Assembly (NCBI RefSeq): GCF_024124825.1
Contig: NZ_JAMXSS010000002.1
Location: forward strand, 1,302,001 to 1,366,000
Origin: Arthrobacter sp. H16F315
Lineage (GTDB): Bacteria; Actinomycetota; Actinomycetes; Actinomycetales; Micrococcaceae
Length of the DNA: 64,000 nucleotides
Direction: 5' to 3'
Position numbers and translations under genes: made by a program. This document shows, in pieces, positions 3,831 to 12,667 of the stretch (positions are counted from its first letter, which is position 1; every line of letters begins with the position of its first letter). The notes beneath the pieces were generated by a model. That model had not been told where the DNA came from, did no database searches, and worked only from the letters and a program-made list of their open reading frames with translations.

Positions 3831-3858
3831 TGTCAGTGCCTCCTGAGATGCTGTGGGT

Positions 3859-5399
3859 ATGGAAGGCGAAGCAGTGCTGGAGACCTTGGCGGCCATGGCG
3901 GCCGCCGTTGCCGCTCTGTCTGTTCACGTCTGTGGGGGTGTTTGCGCCGGCCGCGGGACCGGGACCGCAAGCGTGACCGCAGGCACGATTGTGGGTGCGC
4001 CGGGTGCTGACCCGATTCGGGATCAGGCGGATGCGTGTCTGGATGGTCTTGCTGAAGTGGGCCGTATGGAAGCCCGGTTGGCCGCGCTGAAGGTACATTT
4101 CGCCGCCGGCTACGCCGCCGCGGGGGTGGCCATGACGGCGCCGGCCGTGTCCCCGCAGCAACGCATCTCCCGGCAGATGGCGGTGACGGCTGAAGTTGCC
4201 TGCGTGCTGACAGTGAGTGAGCGGTCGGCCGCGGCACTCCTGGCGGAGTCCGCCACGCTTACAACCGGGTTGCCGTTGACGCTGTCGGCGCTGCTGTCGG
4301 GGAGCATTTCGTGGCAGCACGCACGGGTGATGTGTGATGAGACGTCCGGGCTGGAGCCCGCCGCGGCCGCTGCCCTGGAGGCTCATTTCCTGGACCCGGA
4401 GGCTCCCTTTGCAGCGCGCGGTTGCCCGGCGGGAGAGCTGGTGCCAGGCAGGTTTCGGGCCAAGGCGCGCAGTTGGCGTGAACGGCACCATCCAGTGAAC
4501 ATGGAGGTGCGCCACTGCAGAAGCATGCAGGACCGGCGGCTGGACTATGCCCCGGACCGGGACGGCATGGCGTGGCTCTCAGCCTACCTGCCGGCGGACG
4601 CTGCGGCGGGGGTCTGGGCGCGTGCCACGGAGGCGGCCCGTGCCCTGCAGGGTCCGTCCGAATCCCGGACCTTAACCCAGTTGCGGGTTGACGTCGCCGC
4701 CACGTGGCTGCTGGCTGGAGTGGCGGATGGAACCCCATCACCCGCGGCTCAGGTCCTGGTCACCGTTCCGGTGTTGACGCTGATTGGCGCAGGGGAGGAA
4801 CCGGCCCTCTTGGATGGGTACGGTCCCATTCCGGGGAGTATGGCCCGCCGGCTGGTCGGCGATGGTGCCGGATCGTTCCTGCGGGTGCTGACCGATCCTG
4901 CCAGCGGAGCGCCGCTGGAAATCGGACGCACCAGCTACCGGGTTCCGAAGGCGATGCGCCAATGGCTCCGGCTCCGGGATGGCCGGTGCCCTTTTCCCGG
5001 CTGCAGCAACCCTTCCCTGGACAACGAGGCGGACCATCTCTTGGCGTGGTCGGAGGGAGGCGGCACCGGCGTCGCAAACCTTGGCCAGCCCTGCCGAAAG
5101 CACCACCGCCTCAAACACCTCACGCCCTGGCGGCCTGATGGTGCGACCAGGGACCAGCCGCCGCGCTGGATCTCGCCCTCGGGACGCTCCTACCCCAGCG
5201 AACAACAGGACTGGGAACCGGCTCCCTGGCCGGAACATTCGGGGGAAGATCGGAACTGGGAACCGGCTCCCTGGCCGGAACATTCGGGGAAGATCGGAAC
5301 TGGGAACCGGCTCCCTGGCCTGACCGACTCGCCGGACGCACTGCTGCCGCCGGTCACGGGGCCACGCCAACGCCTTCAGCGCGGACCGACTACGCGTGA
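3859..5399 (+). CDS. DUF222 / HNH endonuclease domain protein, frameshifted in a repeat
   Basis: A large DUF222 region is followed by a C-terminal HNH nuclease motif, with CPFPGCSNPSLDNEADHL and CRKHHRLKH as the metal-binding and catalytic core. Next come three copies of a 15-residue repeat starting (D/N)WEPAPWP. The second DNA copy has four G (5286-5289) where the first has five (5241-5245). Restoring that G gives a stop at 5397-5399 and a 513-residue protein. Without it the frame runs antisense through the neighbouring gene to 5856, which is not credible. The start could also be GTG 3853. Such genes are numerous in actinobacteria, often near repeats, and their role is unclear. A decayed copy of the neighbouring gene's tail lies just upstream. 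Confidence 0.85.
5211..5330 (+). repeat. 45-bp tandem repeat inside the HNH gene
   Basis: Three copies start with CTGGGAACCGGCTCCCTGG at 5211, 5256 and 5300. The first period is 45 bases and the second 44. The missing base is one G, which causes the frameshift. The last copy is partial. Confidence 0.9.
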
Positions 5400-5430
5400 A
5401 CCGTGGCCCGATCAAAACCGCGGGTTGATA

Positions 5431-7266
5431 CTAGCGGCTGCTCACCTGCCCGGACAGCTTAGCGATGGGTGCGAGCACGATCGGACGGGCGGCGTACCAA
5501 CCGGCGGCGGTGACGGCGATGGCGGCGGCGAAGAGCCAGAAGCCTGCCCAGTTCACCGCGTCGGTGCCGCCGAACATGTGGTTGAGGTTGCGCAGCGCAC
5601 CGGTAGCGAACACCAGGAACACATGGACGAGTATAAACGCCACGAAAAACAGCATCGTCGGGAAATGGACCGCGCGCGCAAGCTCGATCGGGTAGGCCCT
5701 GTTCAACGTCTTCGCGTTCTTCGGCCAGAATTCGCTCATGCGTACGCCCGTGATCGCCGCGAGCGGGGCCGCGACGAAGACGACAATGAAGTACATCAGC
5801 TGCTGCAGGCTGTTGTAGTTCACCCAGCCGTTCTCGACGGGCCAGTCGAGTGTTAGGTACTGCAGGAGCGCGGAGAGCGCGTTCGGGAACACCTCCCAGC
5901 TGGTCGGGAGGATCCGCATCCAGTGGCCGGAGGCAAACAGCAGCACCACAAAGACGAGTCCGTTGACCAGCCACAAAATGTCGAGCGACTGGTGCAGCCA
6001 CAGGTTGATGCTAATTTTCTTGCCACCGCGTTTCGGCGTCCAGAACGCCGGCGGTTTCTGCTGGGTGCGCACCTGGTAACCGGAGCGGATGATGAGCGCG
6101 ATCAGGAAGATATTCAGGAAGTGTGACCACTGCGCCCACCACGGGAAGCCAGGCTCCGCCGTCTCGGGCAGGCTGTATTCGCCCGGGTATCGGTCGAGGA
6201 ACGCCGGCACACCGGGCAGCGTGGTCACACCGCGCGCGGCGAGCACCAAAATGCCGGCAGCGGACACCGCGCCGGCTGCGAAGATCAACACCAGCTTTAT
6301 CCACTGACCCAGGGTCCGAGAACCGTAGAGCCGCGCCTCGGCTTTTGGCCGGACGGGCTTTTCAGCGGCAACGGACGGTGCCGCCGCTGCCGGTGCCGGT
6401 GCGGGGGCCGACGCCGGTGCCGGGGCCGGTGCAGACGCTGATGCTGATGCTGATGCTGACGCCGGGACGGCGGGTACGCTCGCGACGGTGGTCGCCGGGA
6501 CCACAGGGGCCCCTTGTGCGCTCGCTGCCACCGGCGGTTCGGCCTCGGCCACGGCGTGCTCCACACTGGTAGCCCGGGCAGGGGCCTGGACAATGTGCTC
6601 GGGAGTTGCCTGCACTGTCGGAGCAACGGCGGACGAGGGAGCAAGTCCAGCCAGCGGCCACGGTTCCCCACCGGGGACACGGGGAAGCCCACGACGCAGC
6701 GGGGTCGCTGCCGCCGCCGTCGTCGTGGCCGGTACGGTCGCCAAGGTAGCTGCGGGTAGCGTCGCCGCCGGGATTGCTTGCGCAGGTGTCGCAGGCGTCG
6801 CAGATGCCACCGGCGCAGCCGGCTCAGCAGAATCAGAGGCTAGCGCTGGCGCTGCAGCTTCGCCCGCGGCGGGCGCCCTGGACATAGCCGACGCCGGCAC
6901 CGAGCCCTGGCCCGCGGGCGGCCAAGGCTCGCCGCCGGGCACCCGTGGCAGGCCGCGGCGAAGCTGCCGCGTCCCGGCGTCGGCGTTCACTGCCGGAACC
7001 GGAGCTGCCGGAACCGGAGCGGCCGGTACCGGAGCGGCCGGTACCGGAGCGGCCGGTACCGGAGCGGCCGGTACCGGAGCGGCCGGTACCGGAGCGGCCG
7101 AAACCGGAGCTGCCGGCTCCGTTGTACGGGCAGCGGCGGGAGTGGTGGCCGTCTCCGCTCGTTCCATATCGATGCGTGCGGGTGCCTGGCCTGCTGCGGG
7201 CCAAGGGTCACCACCCGGCACGCGCGGCAGGCCCCGCCGCAGCGGCCGGGACTGGGTTGCCGTCAC
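5431..7266 (-). CDS. Membrane cytochrome b (b561/b6-like) protein with triple GLPR motif, partner of ETF
   Basis: 611 residues. The start GTG overlaps the etfA stop as GTGA, implying coupled translation. Residues 1-305 are low-complexity Ala/Pro/Val and carry [10 protein letters not shown](D/E)PWP three times (residues 10-23, 103-116, 191-204), joined by linkers including repeated APVPA and an Ala-Ser stretch. Residues 320-600 form a cytochrome b-like domain with about five membrane helices. Candidate haem ligands are His382, His425, His534 and His548. Family knowledge: such domains carry two b haems and pass electrons to or from quinone. Inference: this protein takes electrons from the ETF encoded just upstream, replacing the usual ETF-quinone oxidoreductase, which is not seen here. 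The function of the repeated motif is unknown; docking of a soluble partner is one possibility. Confidence 0.8.
6991..7110 (-). repeat. 15-bp tandem repeat encoding APVPA units
   Basis: Eight head-to-tail 15-base units. The five at 7021-7095 are identical (GGCCGGTACCGGAGC). The flanking units differ by one to three bases. They encode the Ala-Pro-Val-Pro-Ala linker of the cytochrome b protein, so copy number is likely to vary between strains. Confidence 0.95.
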
Positions 7267-8247
7267 TTCTTCCGAGCCTCAAGGGCGCTGATCAGTTGGG
7301 GTACAACCTTAAAAAGATCGCCCACCACACCAAAGTCGGCGATCTCGAAGATGGGTGCGTCTGCATCCTTGTTGATGGCGACGATCGTCTTCGCGGTCTG
7401 CATGCCGGCCCGGTGCTGGATCGCGCCCGAAATGCCAAGCGCGATATAGAGCTGCGATGACACGGAAACCCCGGTCTGGCCCACCTGGTGCGATTGCGGG
7501 ATGAAGCCTGCATCCACCGCGGCACGCGAAGCGCCAATGGCAGCGCCGAGTGTGTCGGCGAGCTGTCCGACGAGGGCGAACTGTTCCTCGGACCCGAGGC
7601 CGCGGCCGCCCGCAACAACCTTCGCGGCCCCGCGCAGCTCCGGCCGCGAGGTGGCGGCCACAACCTCTTCGAAGGAATCGATCCGCGCGGCCGGTTTCCC
7701 GGGGAGGCGCCACTGCCAGGGTCTCCGCCGCTTCCGGCTGAGCCGTGGCGCGGGCCTCGATGGAGCCCTGGCGAACCGTGATCACCGGCGGCCCAAACGT
7801 GGACGTTGAGGTCACGTTGTAGGCGCCGCCATAGACGGAATGGTGAGCCACGACGCCCTCCTCATCACGTGAGACGCCGATCGCATCGACGGAAACCGCC
7901 GCGCGCGAACGCGCCGCGAACCGGCCGGCGAGATCGCGCCCGTTCAGTGAGTGCGAAATCAGGATCGCGTCCGGCTGCACCTGCTCCACAGCGGCCGCCA
8001 ACGCGTCAACGCCCGGAACGCCGAGCGCGGAAGTATCCGGGGTCTCGGCGATCAGGATGCGTGCGGCGCCGAGGGCCGCAGCCTCCGCGGCGGCTGCGCT
8101 CCCGGCCCCGGGTGCGGCAAGTACCAGGGCAACGGGCGTGCCGGCTGCGGCGGCAGCGCCGAAGAGTCCGGCTGCAGCCTTCTCAAGTTCACCGGAAGCC
8201 CGGGTTTCCACAACGACGAGGATTGCGTCACGAGGGAATTCAGTCAT
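7263..8247 (-). CDS. etfA: Electron transfer flavoprotein alpha subunit, frameshifted
   Basis: The ETF alpha subunit binds FAD and, with EtfB, carries electrons from acyl-CoA or other dehydrogenases. The start ATG has AAGGAG upstream and lies 11 bases after etfB. The N-terminal half ends at ETLAVAPP, and the C-terminal FAD domain is in another frame ([46 protein letters not shown]). The break is an extra base in a run of four G on the plus strand (7701-7704). Removing it gives [13 protein letters not shown] and a 327-residue protein of normal length. The stop overlaps the cytochrome b start. The arrangement etfB-etfA-cytochrome b is on one transcript. Confidence 0.9.
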
Positions 8248-8258
8248 GTCGTTACTCC

Positions 8259-9035
8259 TTACGCCAGTCGGTTTTCGATCAGGAAGTCAGCGAGCTTTTC
8301 GCCGGCGTCACCCTCGTCGATGATTTTGACGCCGGCCGCGCGCGGGGGCTTCTCGGCGACGGTCAGCATAATCGAACGCGCCGCGTCCGGGCTGTCGGCG
8401 GTGATCCTGAGGTCTGCGAGGGTGAGCGTCTCGAAGGGCTTCTTCTTCGCGGCCATAATTCCTTTGAAATTGGGGAAGCGTGCCCCGGGAAGCGCCTCGG
8501 TAATGGAAATCACCGCGGGCAGGGTCGCTGATACCTGCTGCACGCCTGATTCAACGGCCCTGGAGCCGGACACCTCTCCGTCGCTGATCTGTACGGAGCT
8601 GAGCCCGGTGGCGTGGGGCACGTCCAGCAATTCCGCAAGCATCGCGGGAATCATGCCGCCGGATCCATCGGTGGAGACGTTCCCCGTGATCACCAGGTCA
8701 AACTCGATGCGGCGGAGCGCTGCGGCGAGGGTTTCGGCGGTCAGGCCAAGATCGGCACCCCGGAGCGCCTCGTCCGAGACATGGGTGGCGCTCCCCGCGC
8801 CCATCGCAAGCCCCTTGCGTATGGTTGCCGTCGCATTCCCGGGAGCGAGGGAGAGGACTGCGACGTTGGTGCCCGCATTCGCGTCGGCGTACGTCAGCGC
8901 CAGCTCCAGCGCCCGCTCACCGATCTCATCGATGACCGCCTCGCTGGCTTCCCTGTCGGCGAGGCCTGTTTCATGGTTCAGTTTTCGGTCCCCGTACGTG
9001 TCGGGAACCTCCTTGACGAGGACGACAATCTTCAT
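8259..9035 (-). CDS. etfB: Electron transfer flavoprotein beta subunit
   Basis: 258 residues beginning MKIVVLVKEVPDTYGDRKLN, the typical EtfB N-terminus. A conserved region reads LALTYADANAGTNVAVLSL. Start ATG 9035 is preceded by AGGAAG. A longer in-frame extension to 9308 exists but matches nothing in the family and runs through the divergent promoter region, so I reject it. It forms the soluble heterodimer with EtfA and binds AMP in known members. It is the first gene of the ETF-cytochrome operon and is divergent from an XRE/cupin regulator. Confidence 0.95.
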   Translation of the reverse strand: MKIVVLVKEVPDTYGDRKLNHETGLADREASEAVIDEIGERALELALTYADANAGTNVAVLSLAPGNATATIRKGLAMGAGSATHVSDEALRGADLGLTAETLAAALRRIEFDLVITGNVSTDGSGGMIPAMLAELLDVPHATGLSSVQISDGEVSGSRAVESGVQQVSATLPAVISITEALPGARFPNFKGIMAAKKKPFETLTLADLRITADSPDAARSIMLTVAEKPPRAAGVKIIDEGDAGEKLADFLIENRLA

Positions 9036-9278: not shown

Positions 9279-9911
9279 ATGGCGGACGATCGTGGGATGG
9301 AGAATCACGGCGTCGGCCCCGGGGCAGGACTGGAATATCCGCCGGTAGAGGATCAGGCCGAGCGCGCGATGACCGCCGTCGGCGCTTTGGTCCTGCAGCT
9401 ACGGCGGGAGGCTGGGTACAGCATCGGCAGCCTTGCGGCGGCGGCCAGCCTCAGCCCCGGCCTGCTGAGCCAGATCGAGCGTGGCCAGGGAAACCCGTCG
9501 CTGACCACGCTGATCAAACTCTCCCAGGCCCTGAAAGTACCGGTGGGACGCTTCTTTGACAGCAAAGACCAAGGCGGGGCGCTGGTGCGGCGCGAGGACC
9601 GGCGGCGGCTCGAAGTTGCCGAGGACAACCTCATCTACGAACTCCTGACACCGCACATGAGCGGCCAGCTGGGGATGCTGCGGGCCCAGATCGCCCCGGG
9701 CTGGGACAACGAGGATGCTCCTTTCAAACACGCCGGCGAAGAATGCGTGACCATGGTGCAGGGCCGGCTCCACGTCTGCGTCAACGGCGTGGGGTATGAC
9801 CTGGAGGAAGGCGATTCGCTGACCTACGACTCCGCGCTGCCGCACTGGTACCGCAACTCCACCTCGGAAGACGCGGCGCTGATCGGCGCCATGACGCCGC
9901 CCTCCTTCTAA
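9279..9911 (+). CDS. XRE-family regulator with C-terminal cupin domain
   Basis: 210 residues. The helix-turn-helix region reads LRREAGYSIGSLAAAASLSPGLLSQIERGQGNPSLTTL (given here as evidence for HTH placement, residues about 33-70), with a C-terminal cupin barrel including PFKHAGEECVTMVQGRLHV and a closing ALPHWYRN. This is the SutR/PuuR-like type that often controls amino acid or polyamine use. The start may instead be ATG 9297. Upstream, TATCTT occurs twice, 12 bases apart (9257 and 9269), which could be an operator. It is divergent from etfBA and 192 bases upstream of an M20 peptidase-transporter operon; either could be its target. Confidence 0.85.
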   Translation: MADDRGMENHGVGPGAGLEYPPVEDQAERAMTAVGALVLQLRREAGYSIGSLAAAASLSPGLLSQIERGQGNPSLTTLIKLSQALKVPVGRFFDSKDQGGALVRREDRRRLEVAEDNLIYELLTPHMSGQLGMLRAQIAPGWDNEDAPFKHAGEECVTMVQGRLHVCVNGVGYDLEEGDSLTYDSALPHWYRNSTSEDAALIGAMTPPSF

Positions 9912-9951
9912 CGGCCGACGGCCGACGGCGGACCTGCGGGAGATACGCTGC

Positions 9952-10014
9952 GTTCAATTTAATGAACAAATCGTGTTCAAAGTGTTGACATGAGTGGTGA
10001 GTCGGTCAAATACT
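9952..10014 (+). promoter_or_regulatory. Promoter and nearby inverted repeat upstream of the M20 peptidase
   Basis: A perfect -35 TTGACA at 9985-9990 and AATACT at 10009-10014 are 18 bases apart. Just upstream, 9952-9967 has arms GTTCA and TGAAC around an AT-rich centre, and a third GTTCA follows at 9975. This arrangement would suit the XRE/cupin regulator encoded immediately upstream, but that is inference. Confidence 0.5.
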
Positions 10015-10103
10015 GGGGGAAGAGAGCGGAATAGGCCGGCAGGCACAACCAGCTGCTGCCGCCCACCGCACCCAAACCGTCAAACACTGCGAGGAACCAG
10101 CCC

Positions 10104-11348
10104 ATGACGTCCGCCACCACACCGGCAACAGCAGTACCCAGCACCGACGATCCAACTGCCGCCGCCCCCAGCGCCGCGGGTCTGGCCTGGGCGGAGAAGC
10201 TGGTCTCCTTCGACACCACCAGCCGCAATTCCAACCTTGCCTTGATCCACTGCATAGCGGACGAGCTCACCGCCCACGGGATCACCCCGGTCATCGTTCC
10301 CAGCCGCGACGGCACCAAAGCCAACCTCTTCGCCACGATCCCGGCCCGGGACGGCGCCGTCACCGGCGGTGTTATGCTCGCCGGCCACACCGACGTCGTA
10401 CCCGTGGACGGCCAGGACTGGCACAGCGATCCTTTCACCCCCGAGATACGCGAGGACCGGCTCTACGGCCGCGGCACCACCGACATGAAGGCCTTCAGCG
10501 GCGCCATCTTGGGCTTGCTGCCCGAGTTCCTGTCCCGCGAACTGTCCGAACCGCTGCACTTCGCCTGGACCTACGACGAAGAGGTCGGCTGCCACGGCGC
10601 AGTCGTCCTGCTGGCCGAGCTCGCTGCACGCGGGATCCATCCCCGGATTGCCTTCGTCGGCGAGCCGACCAGCATGCGTCCCGTCTCGGCGCACAAGAGC
10701 AGCCAGCTCTTCCGCGTCAGCGTCAGGGGCATCGCCGCCCATTCCTCCATGACTTCCACCGGCGTCAACGCCATCGAATACGCGGCCAGGTCCATTGCCT
10801 TTATCAGGTCGCTCGCCGACGAACACCGGCTGTCCGGCCCGTTTGATGACACCTTTGTGGTCCCCTACACCACCGCCAACGTGGGCCTGGTCAGCGGCGG
10901 TGCGGCAGTGAACACCGTTGCTGAACACTGCGACTTCGACTTTGAGTTCCGGACCATTCCGGGTGAGGACCCGGCGACGGTGATCTCCTCTATCGAGGAC
11001 CACCTGGCGCAGCTGCGGGCCGAAATCCAACAGGAGAACCCGGCCGCAGACATCCGGATGGTGCCACGGGGTACGGTCCCGGGGCTCAGCCCGGAAGGCC
11101 CGCGTGCCGCCCTGGAACTGGCCCAGCAGCTCAGCGGACACGCCGTCGAAGAGACCGTGGTCTACGCCACCGAGGCGGGACTTTTCCAGCGGGCCGGCAT
11201 CGACACAGTGGTCTGCGGTCCCGGCAACATGGACCAGGGCCACACGGCCAACGAATACATCGAGCTGTCCCAGATCGCCGCGTGCGAGAGCTTTCTGCAG
11301 GCACTCTCCGCCCACCTCTCCCCAACCGAACGGACTGCCCAGCCATGA
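10104..11348 (+). CDS. M20 peptidase, acetylornithine deacetylase (ArgE-like)
   Basis: 414 residues, start ATG 10104 with GAGGAA upstream. It has the M20 metallopeptidase signatures: MLAGHTDVVPVDGQDW, LYGRGTTDMKAFSG with the metal-bridging Asp, the catalytic Glu pair in WTYDEEVGCHGA, and a late GPGNMDQGHTANEYIE with the metal-binding His. It removes an acyl group from an N-acyl amino acid. It overlaps the next gene, an MHS-type transporter, by ATGA, which suggests a catabolic uptake-and-deacylation role rather than arginine synthesis. The exact substrate is not evident. Confidence 0.9.
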   Translation: MTSATTPATAVPSTDDPTAAAPSAAGLAWAEKLVSFDTTSRNSNLALIHCIADELTAHGITPVIVPSRDGTKANLFATIPARDGAVTGGVMLAGHTDVVPVDGQDWHSDPFTPEIREDRLYGRGTTDMKAFSGAILGLLPEFLSRELSEPLHFAWTYDEEVGCHGAVVLLAELAARGIHPRIAFVGEPTSMRPVSAHKSSQLFRVSVRGIAAHSSMTSTGVNAIEYAARSIAFIRSLADEHRLSGPFDDTFVVPYTTANVGLVSGGAAVNTVAEHCDFDFEFRTIPGEDPATVISSIEDHLAQLRAEIQQENPAADIRMVPRGTVPGLSPEGPRAALELAQQLSGHAVEETVVYATEAGLFQRAGIDTVVCGPGNMDQGHTANEYIELSQIAACESFLQALSAHLSPTERTAQP

Positions 11349-12667
11349 GCCATCAAACTGCCCCCAGCCTCGGTTCCGGTGACCAGGCTACCGGCCAGCG
11401 CCCGCCGGACACCCTGGCGCTGGAACAAAAAAATGCCCGAAAAGCCGTCGTCGCCGCCTCGATCGGCAACGGACTGGAGTGGTTTGACCTGATTGTGTAC
11501 GGCACGTTCGCCGTCACCATCTCCAAGTTGTTCTTCCCCACCAGCAATGAAGCCGCATCACTGCTGTTGACCTTCGCCTCGTTCGGGGTGTCCTTCATCA
11601 TGCGCCCGCTGGGCGGCATCATCATCGGCCGCTACGCCGACAAGGCCGGACGCAAGGCCGGCATGCTGGTGTCCATCCTGGTGATGTTTGTTGGCACCTT
11701 ACTGATTGTGGTGGCACCCACGGCCGCAGCCATCGGGGTCACCGCCAGCATCCTGGTGCTGGTCGCCCGGCTGCTTCAGGGCTTCGCCACCGGCGGGGAA
11801 TTCGGCACGGCCACGGCCTACCTGATCGAGTACGCGCCGAACCGGAAGGCGTTCTACGGCAGCTGGCAGGTGGCCACCCAAGGCGGCGGCATCCTGCTGG
11901 CCGGAATCTTCGGTTTTGTACTCAACTCCTACCTCAGCACCCAATCGCTCGAGTCCTGGGGCTGGCGGCTGCCGTTCATCTTCGCGCTGGCCATCGGACC
12001 CGTGGGCTGGTACATCCGGTCCAAGATGGAGGAAACCCCGGAGTTCCTCGCCACCGAAAAGTCCACTTCGCCGCTGCGGGAGACGTTCATCGGCAACGGC
12101 GGCCGGCTCTGGGCGATCGTGGGTGTTGTATCGCTGGGATCCGTGGGCGTCTACATTGCCCTCTTTATGCCCACCTATGCGATCGTGAACCTGGGGATGC
12201 CGAAATCCGTGGCCTTCCTCTCCACCTTGATCTTCGGTGTGGTGATGAGCCTGGGTTCGCCGTTCATCGGCATGCTGGCGGACAAAGTGGGCCCGGCCCG
12301 GGTGATGACCTGGGCTGCTGCCGGCACAATCGTCGTCGGCATCCCGGCGTTTATGCTCCTCATCGCCGCGCCGGCCCTGCCCACCATGGTCGTGGTGGAA
12401 CTGGTGCTCTCGGTATTGGCCACCAGCTACTTTGCACCGCTGCCGGCCATTATGTCTTCGATGTTCCCGGCCCGCATCCGCTCCACAGGGCTTTCCCTCG
12501 GCTACAACATCGGCGTCACAGTCTTCGGCGGATTCGCGCCCTTTATCCTGACCTGGCTGATCGGCACCACCGGTTCCCTGCTGGTGCCCGGGTTCTACCT
12601 GGTGAGCATTGCGGTCCTCGCCGCCGTGAGCCTGACCATTGCGCGGAAGGTCTACCGCCAGGCCTGA
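11345..12667 (+). CDS. MHS-family MFS transporter
   Basis: 440 residues with about 12 membrane helices. The MHS (metabolite:H+ symporter) signature is in the first helix, ASIGNGLEWFDLIVYG. The loop 2-3 motif is GRYADKAGRKAG, and LLQGFATGGEFG is also typical. ATG 11345 overlaps the peptidase stop, so a longer frame from 11282 is rejected. Family members import organic acids, betaines or amino acid derivatives. It probably imports the substrate of the co-translated M20 peptidase. Confidence 0.92.
   Translation: MSHQTAPSLGSGDQATGQRPPDTLALEQKNARKAVVAASIGNGLEWFDLIVYGTFAVTISKLFFPTSNEAASLLLTFASFGVSFIMRPLGGIIIGRYADKAGRKAGMLVSILVMFVGTLLIVVAPTAAAIGVTASILVLVARLLQGFATGGEFGTATAYLIEYAPNRKAFYGSWQVATQGGGILLAGIFGFVLNSYLSTQSLESWGWRLPFIFALAIGPVGWYIRSKMEETPEFLATEKSTSPLRETFIGNGGRLWAIVGVVSLGSVGVYIALFMPTYAIVNLGMPKSVAFLSTLIFGVVMSLGSPFIGMLADKVGPARVMTWAAAGTIVVGIPAFMLLIAAPALPTMVVVELVLSVLATSYFAPLPAIMSSMFPARIRSTGLSLGYNIGVTVFGGFAPFILTWLIGTTGSLLVPGFYLVSIAVLAAVSLTIARKVYRQA

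Follow-up and report, generated by a model that had tools for sequence, protein, structure and literature searches.

A conserved electron transfer flavoprotein module with a motif-bearing cytochrome b, a proposed ETF:menaquinone oxidoreductase, in Arthrobacter and its relatives

How does an electron transfer flavoprotein (ETF) pass its electrons to the quinone pool in a bacterium in whose genome neither ETF-quinone oxidoreductase (ETF-QO) nor EtfD is found? The question is raised by a 64,000-nucleotide stretch of the Arthrobacter sp. H16F315 genome (contig NZ_JAMXSS010000002.1, positions 1,302,001 to 1,366,000; hereafter the window), in which the ETF genes etfB and etfA are followed on the same strand by a gene for a 611-residue cytochrome b whose long N-terminal arm carries three copies of a short motif. 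We refer to such proteins as armed cytochromes. Our analyses suggest that these genes quite probably form a module in which a dedicated EtfAB is served by its own membrane ETF:menaquinone oxidoreductase, with the motifs acting as multivalent tethers for ETF. The features on which this reading rests are the following (window coordinates).

8259..9035, minus strand: etfB, 258 residues, ETF domain PF01012 (E 4.7e-30)
7309..8247, minus strand: N-terminal part of etfA, open reading frame with the ETF domain (PF01012, E 3.7e-23, residues 9-180 of 312)
7263..7661, minus strand: C-terminal part of etfA, in another frame, binding flavin adenine dinucleotide (FAD) (PF00766, E 1.2e-32)
5431..7266, minus strand: armed cytochrome b, 611 residues (PF01292 at residues 374-567, E 4.6e-11)
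7198..7239, minus strand: motif copy 1 (14 residues)
6919..6960, minus strand: motif copy 2 (14 residues)
6655..6696, minus strand: motif copy 3 (14 residues)
6992..7116, minus strand: 15-bp tandem repeat, 8.3 copies, coding for part of the first linker
5434..6312, minus strand: membrane domain, residues 319-611, six proposed helices, N-in/C-in (low-confidence model, with hydropathy for the helix limits)

The initial annotation placed etfB and the cytochrome exactly where we find them and described all three genes as coupled through a GTGA overlap. Such an overlap does join the etfA stop to the GTG start of the cytochrome (7263-7266, read from the sequence), but etfB and etfA do not overlap. 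Nor is etfA the single intact gene that had been assumed: in this assembly its ETF and FAD domains lie in different frames, and the end of the 7309-8247 reading frame is read out of frame past the frameshift. Allowing for this split, the pair carries the domains of an EtfAB, with PF01012 in both subunits and PF00766 in EtfA. Two related loci (L031 and L038) also have a split etfA, at different places, which suggests that the splits are sequencing errors and not a trait in common.

The motif consists of ten residues followed by [DE]PWP and starts at residues 10, 103 and 191 of the cytochrome; across armed cytochromes its consensus is RRGLPR..GG[DE]PWP. As originally described, the three copies sit on Ala/Pro-rich arms ahead of the membrane helices, within the first ∼318 residues, and are separated by linkers containing 28.6% Ala and 11.9% Pro. 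A repeat origin, which had been proposed for the linkers in general, holds for the part of one linker coded by the 15-bp repeat and not for the rest; this repeat is mostly missing in the closest homologue (P0001). Copies 1 and 2 of the motif differ by eight synonymous and one non-synonymous codon changes, and copy 3 differs from either of them synonymously at 11 of 14 codons and non-synonymously at one or none. Because the differences are mainly synonymous, the copies are kept alike by selection on the protein and not by recent DNA duplication. Residues 1-318 form no secondary structure in a low-confidence model, so that a short conserved motif, several copies and a disordered region (the last according to that model) occur together in the arm.

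Is this arrangement peculiar to one strain? Related loci were taken as the best 80 of 307 matches in a scan of named genomes, and the order etfB-etfA-cytochrome on one strand was present in 77 of them, the other three being cut by contig ends. Scoring the 77 uncut loci with a 14-column profile revealed three copies in 50, four in 23, two in 3 and none in 1, so that two to four copies were found in 76. The best profile score in 1600 shuffles of the relatives' arms was 0.58, and the real copies printed scored 26 to 49. The hosts are Arthrobacter, Pseudarthrobacter, Paenarthrobacter, Glutamicibacter, Brevibacterium, Leucobacter, Microbacterium, Gulosibacter, Agromyces and Myceligenerans. Judged by gene order and motif content, etfB-etfA-armed cytochrome is a conserved module. 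One further contig, labelled Planococcus sp. APC 4015, holds a module (L077) that groups with Microbacteriaceae, and it is probably mislabelled or contaminated.

A separate survey of RG[LV]PR cores covered 120 homologues listed of 1820 matches and found three cores in 54, two in 17, one in 22 and none in 27. In the three-copy homologues listed, the copies mostly start near residues 10, 90 and 170 though the linkers hardly align, and the motifs themselves are near-invariant across genera. The 27 short, motif-free homologues listed do not all represent a separate type, since one of them (P0100) is the C-terminal part of another protein of the same strain (P0053), a start-site artefact; genuine armless relatives exist besides it. 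In six loci (L056, L060, L077, L079, L082 and L086) the first membrane helix is preceded by another conserved sequence, P[LI]PF..TVW.G.

We then asked where else the motif occurs. A search of the Arthrobacter genome itself (4.2 Mb, 95.6% complete) returned the three known copies at the top, followed by copy 2 read antisense (E 0.027) and by matches with E of at least 0.125. The motif peptide was also compared with 119 genomes drawn from the order, a sample added because the best 80 loci lean towards the armed type. It gave 41 listed matches, 37 of them at E<=1.7e-4 and all of these in armed cytochromes of 13 genomes; the remaining four (E>=0.004) lie in frames of 57-87 residues. The initial annotation would have been refuted by a motif that belongs mostly to proteins with no tie to ETF; these counts place it instead in the ETF-linked cytochrome. 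Phylum-wide, the exact DNA pattern was present in 3 of 396 genomes: our own, one with an armed cytochrome (G343), and one (G162) in which it sits in a 127-residue frame with neither ETF nor cytochrome, which we take as chance.

Within the 119 genomes, the membrane domain occurs in 28, as an armed protein in 14, an armless one in 10 and a molybdenum-fused one in 4. Sequence or coordinates put all 14 armed cytochromes next to a gene for ETF alpha; in one genome (G475) the armed gene is broken across two contigs, leaving one motif copy beside ETF alpha, and in another (G451) the repeats are shortened to RR(R)GLP. No ETF gene was found in the ∼1.5-kb flanks of the 10 armless and 4 molybdenum-fused cytochromes. 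In a tree that kept 29 of 32 selected armed rows, three having been lost to the trimming pattern, the 29 cluster together (98/96) with a single armless exception. This exception (L116, genome G316) lies inside the armed clade in a genome without ETF alpha, with weak placement (85/24) on a long branch, and it may have shed its arms after ETF was lost. Two genomes of the window's own genus (G008 and G412) also encode an armless cytochrome b on the strand of the etfB frame, ∼6.6 kb upstream of it (L170 and L171).

Is the ETF of the module distinct as well? A tree of 55 hand-picked rows, out of 109 full-length EtfA rows, placed the 35 rows from armed loci on one side of a single branch (100/100; 100% of 200 bootstrap trees). 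The other 20 rows, among them the second EtfA of our own genome, fall outside this clade; two rows of the tree are identical and two (L133 and L136) are long-branched. The mean net charge of EtfA is -13.4 in the armed group (n = 33) versus -7.6 in the others (n = 20), and a more acidic EtfA suits the cationic motif.

If the armed cytochrome serves ETF, do the known exits for ETF electrons occur beside it? The initial annotation had noted that no ETF-QO gene lies nearby, and this extends to the whole genome: no match to PF21162 (ETF-QO) was found in our own genome or in the window cytochrome, whereas 2 of 14 genomes were positive in the control. Nor did our own genome match PF02754, the CCG domain of the EtfD kind, for which 12 of 14 control genomes were positive. 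The possibility then raised, that an ETF-QO gene elsewhere accounts for electron exit, found no counterpart in either family. Among the 119 genomes of the order there were 10 ETF-QO-like matches, 8 of them above cut-off, and 30 genomes with an EtfD-like protein; neither kind was present in the 14 armed genomes. EtfD-like proteins were called at E<=2e-18 in frames of at least 583 residues, the Pfam check of their domains covering L168 and L169. Two genomes (G413 and G426) were excluded, their CCG matches having two cluster motifs close together and the two checked EtfD proteins a long insert; a later search with the EtfD protein found none in either.

The cleanest comparison comes from 57 genomes of the genus of G413, Brevibacterium by likeness to named loci. 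An armed cytochrome was present in 35 and EtfD in 8, and no genome had both. All 35 armed genomes showed the motif on reading, and 14 armless ones retrieved for comparison lacked it; the armless cytochrome occurs in 15 of the 57 (the fifteenth being G399), one of them with EtfD. Armed cytochrome and EtfD are mutually exclusive in this genus. The cytochrome had originally been read as an alternative route from ETF to quinone, an interpretation that our data support, with operon order, the EtfA clade and the EtfD exclusion adding weight. In some bacteria of the Arthrobacter-Brevibacterium group, the armed cytochrome may substitute for the known enzyme that feeds ETF electrons into respiration. 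If this holds, it would partly explain how ETF is oxidised in those Actinobacteria that have neither ETF-QO nor EtfD, and provide an example of one enzyme replacing another within a single genus.

Can the membrane domain carry out such a reaction? It matches the prokaryotic cytochrome b561 profile PF01292 at 43.3 bits (curated cut-off, 30.1), and the formate dehydrogenase gamma profile weakly, far under that profile's cut-off. We compared 17 diverse membrane domains, 26-65% identical to that of the window where they are relatives. Of these related domains, 4 of 17 match the hydrogenase and thiosulfate reductase models, the window's own not among them. The mean number of Lys and Arg residues per loop alternates (6.0/1.1/5.9/1.1/4.9/1.0/3.0), which by the positive-inside rule would put arms and C-terminus in the cytoplasm, on the same side as ETF. 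His382, His425, His534 and His548 are the only invariant histidines, as would be expected for two bis-histidine b haems, and are the proposed ligands. A 14-residue spacing of haem ligands is known from hydrogenase and formate dehydrogenase subunits. A model of the cytochrome with 16 relatives had a mean predicted local distance difference test (pLDDT) of 42.4 and a predicted template modelling score (pTM) of 0.23. When solved structures were searched with a profile of the full-length alignment, no match rose above chance level (best E 0.016). The significant matches from a membrane-domain profile, to sulfite oxidases and nitrate reductases, were produced by fused rows and set aside.

Members of the b561 family, which includes formate dehydrogenase gamma and the cytochromes b of NiFe-hydrogenase and thiosulfate reductase, take electrons from iron-sulfur subunits. 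The window cytochrome shares with them the membrane domain and its four invariant histidines, but its linked partner is a flavoprotein and it bears repeat arms. The oxidoreductase would be a diheme b-type cytochrome with neither flavin nor iron-sulfur domain. Acyl-CoA dehydrogenases and sarcosine oxidases, or their pathways, commonly use ETF, and the gene neighbourhood speaks for this reading: of the 77 loci, 23 have an acyl-CoA dehydrogenase gene no more than 10 kb from the module, 15 an enoyl-CoA hydratase and 8 a thiolase gene (29 have any of the three), and 18, all Brevibacterium, have sarcosine oxidase alpha. Acyl-CoA dehydrogenases and similar enzymes would load EtfAB with electrons, and the reduced EtfAB would be caught in the cytoplasm by one of the three or four motifs on the disordered arm. 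We infer that the arm would then keep EtfAB close to the membrane domain while its FAD passes single electrons to the cytoplasm-side haem, from which they would move to the second haem and on to menaquinone. With several weak sites, ETF would be concentrated locally, an arrangement that would fit a carrier delivering one electron at a time. The membrane potential may help to move electrons from the inner haem to the outer one. Such help is plausible because the potential of acyl-CoA oxidation is not much more negative than that of menaquinone, so that oxidation of acyl-CoA by menaquinone is energetically close to level or slightly uphill. The menaquinone midpoint is given as -74 mV (PMC10734219).

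Structure prediction of the docking step, on an alignment of loci whose genes lie in one frame, used EtfB, EtfA and the arms as one chain; an earlier single-gene alignment had placed EtfA and arm rows on EtfB and was dropped. In this model the EtfA FAD domain is unfolded (pLDDT <50 over 445-568), and the motif blocks reach pLDDT 29-41 versus mostly 25-35 in the rest of the arm. The cytochrome modelled without ETF has a similar small rise at the motifs (35-40 versus 27-34).

Is there precedent for such a tether? The nearest is mycobacterial EtfD (Rv0338c, MSMEG_0690), which has the same proposed job, from ETF to menaquinone, a membrane b haem and a long disordered region with interspersed repeats (PMC13083937). 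In the cryo-electron microscopy structure of the protein this region, which is C-terminal and has conserved repeats, is invisible, and no ETF is bound; an AlphaFold 3 model there has EtfD and ETF in contact through this tail (PMC13083937). EtfB was among the proteins pulled down with EtfD (PMC8593149). The same source gives EtfD two 4Fe-4S sites and two CCG domains; the window cytochrome has none, and PF01292 was the sole domain found in it when CCG and 4Fe-4S dicluster domains were sought. The repeat region is at the C terminus in EtfD and at the N terminus in the armed cytochrome. Among 22 EtfD tails of the order (20 regions plus L168 and L169), 3 are long with Trp repeats, namely PSWE x12 in L226, DPWD x9 in L227 and at least three copies in L231, which meets a contig end; the other 19 are short and without them. 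By these comparisons, the armed cytochrome shares a tether principle with some EtfD proteins, not ancestry. ETF-QO (ETFDH; PF21162) has a like proposed job and belongs to a separate protein family. Searches of an open-access library, which covered listings and the openings of abstracts and lacks most subscription papers, brought up no description of this motif or of such an ETF-linked cytochrome b that we recognised.

What we propose is an ETF:menaquinone oxidoreductase from a different protein family, equipped with a multivalent tether, a principle with precedent in the unrelated EtfD. Even in mycobacterial EtfD the contact with ETF is a predicted one, through the disordered repeat tail, no complex of the two having been seen (PMC13083937). 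The candidate tether described here is a short, near-invariant peptide that nature supplies three or four times over on a simpler enzyme. A bolder reading, to which we give even chances, is that ETF-QO and EtfD are joined by another, unrelated way of passing electrons from ETF to menaquinone: a diheme cytochrome b that has no flavin or iron-sulfur relay and compensates with a three- to four-site tether for its own dedicated ETF. The repeated Trp motifs of disordered tails ([DE]PW in the arms, DPWD and APSWE in a few EtfD proteins) would in that case form a convergent grammar of ETF docking.

Several observations weigh against the tethered-oxidoreductase reading. The selection of the 80 loci was biased towards the armed type. 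L085, alone among the 77, has no scoring motif copy. No beta-oxidation gene lies nearby in 48 of the 77 loci. In the genus test, 14 of 57 genomes lack both EtfD and an armed cytochrome, and the relatedness of the genomes deprives the exclusion counts of independence. Of 89 genomes of the order that bear ETF, about 36-38 encode no armed cytochrome, EtfD-like or ETF-QO-like protein by our criteria, and beside the second etfBA of our own genome (L182 5347-7208, plus strand) no partner oxidoreductase was recognised by eye in 13 kb. Another route must therefore exist, and the absence of ETF-QO alone proves little.

Could the motifs hold something other than ETF? One alternative, unlikely but the best placed of the rivals, is that the cytochrome does oxidise ETF and the motifs bind one another, a further respiratory complex, the surface of the membrane, or acyl-CoA dehydrogenases, which would make a metabolon. 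In seven of the 23 loci with a nearby acyl-CoA dehydrogenase gene, that gene stops no more than 150 bp from the etfB frame, which would favor a metabolon; the other matches are more distant, some on the opposite strand. A cationic motif with Trp could also suit anionic lipid. However, motif presence follows ETF linkage and the separate EtfA clade, not any one dehydrogenase, and relatives without an adjacent ETF retain the membrane domain and not the motif.

Improbable in our estimate is a module with another direction or target. In the first case ETF would be reduced through the cytochrome, by menaquinol or some other donor, for a reductive reaction; in the second the cytochrome would serve a different enzyme and just be co-transcribed with etfBA. 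The fold is partner-flexible, relatives of the membrane domain being fused to a sulfite-oxidase-like molybdenum domain in our own genome (by Pfam) and in four others in the alignment. The paralogue in our genome (L181 4710-7412, plus strand; G000:C2:2890810-2891742) combines PF01292 with the molybdopterin domain PF00174, has no motif, and belongs to the same membrane family with a different partner. Against such a role stand the beta-oxidation and sarcosine oxidase neighbors and the mutual exclusion with EtfD, an ETF-oxidising enzyme. That the arms are a low-complexity spacer whose motif copies have no binding role would agree with Ala/Pro-rich linkers, one of them expanded by a DNA repeat, but is very improbable given near-invariant motifs beside hardly alignable linkers and the synonymous divergence between copies.

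In the window itself, no acyl-CoA dehydrogenase, hydratase, thiolase or sarcosine oxidase gene was found beside the module. Downstream of the cytochrome, a 44-bp tandem repeat (2.5 copies, 5210-5320) lies near the 3' end of a DUF222 gene (reading frame 3853-5856, plus strand); the length of its unit is not divisible by three, and the frame continues antisense into the cytochrome gene. On the etfB side, positions 9279-12667 hold a PuuR-related regulator with cupin and helix-turn-helix domains (9279-9911, plus strand), an M20 peptidase and a major facilitator superfamily transporter. This transporter cluster recurs near the module in 12 loci, the window counted in.

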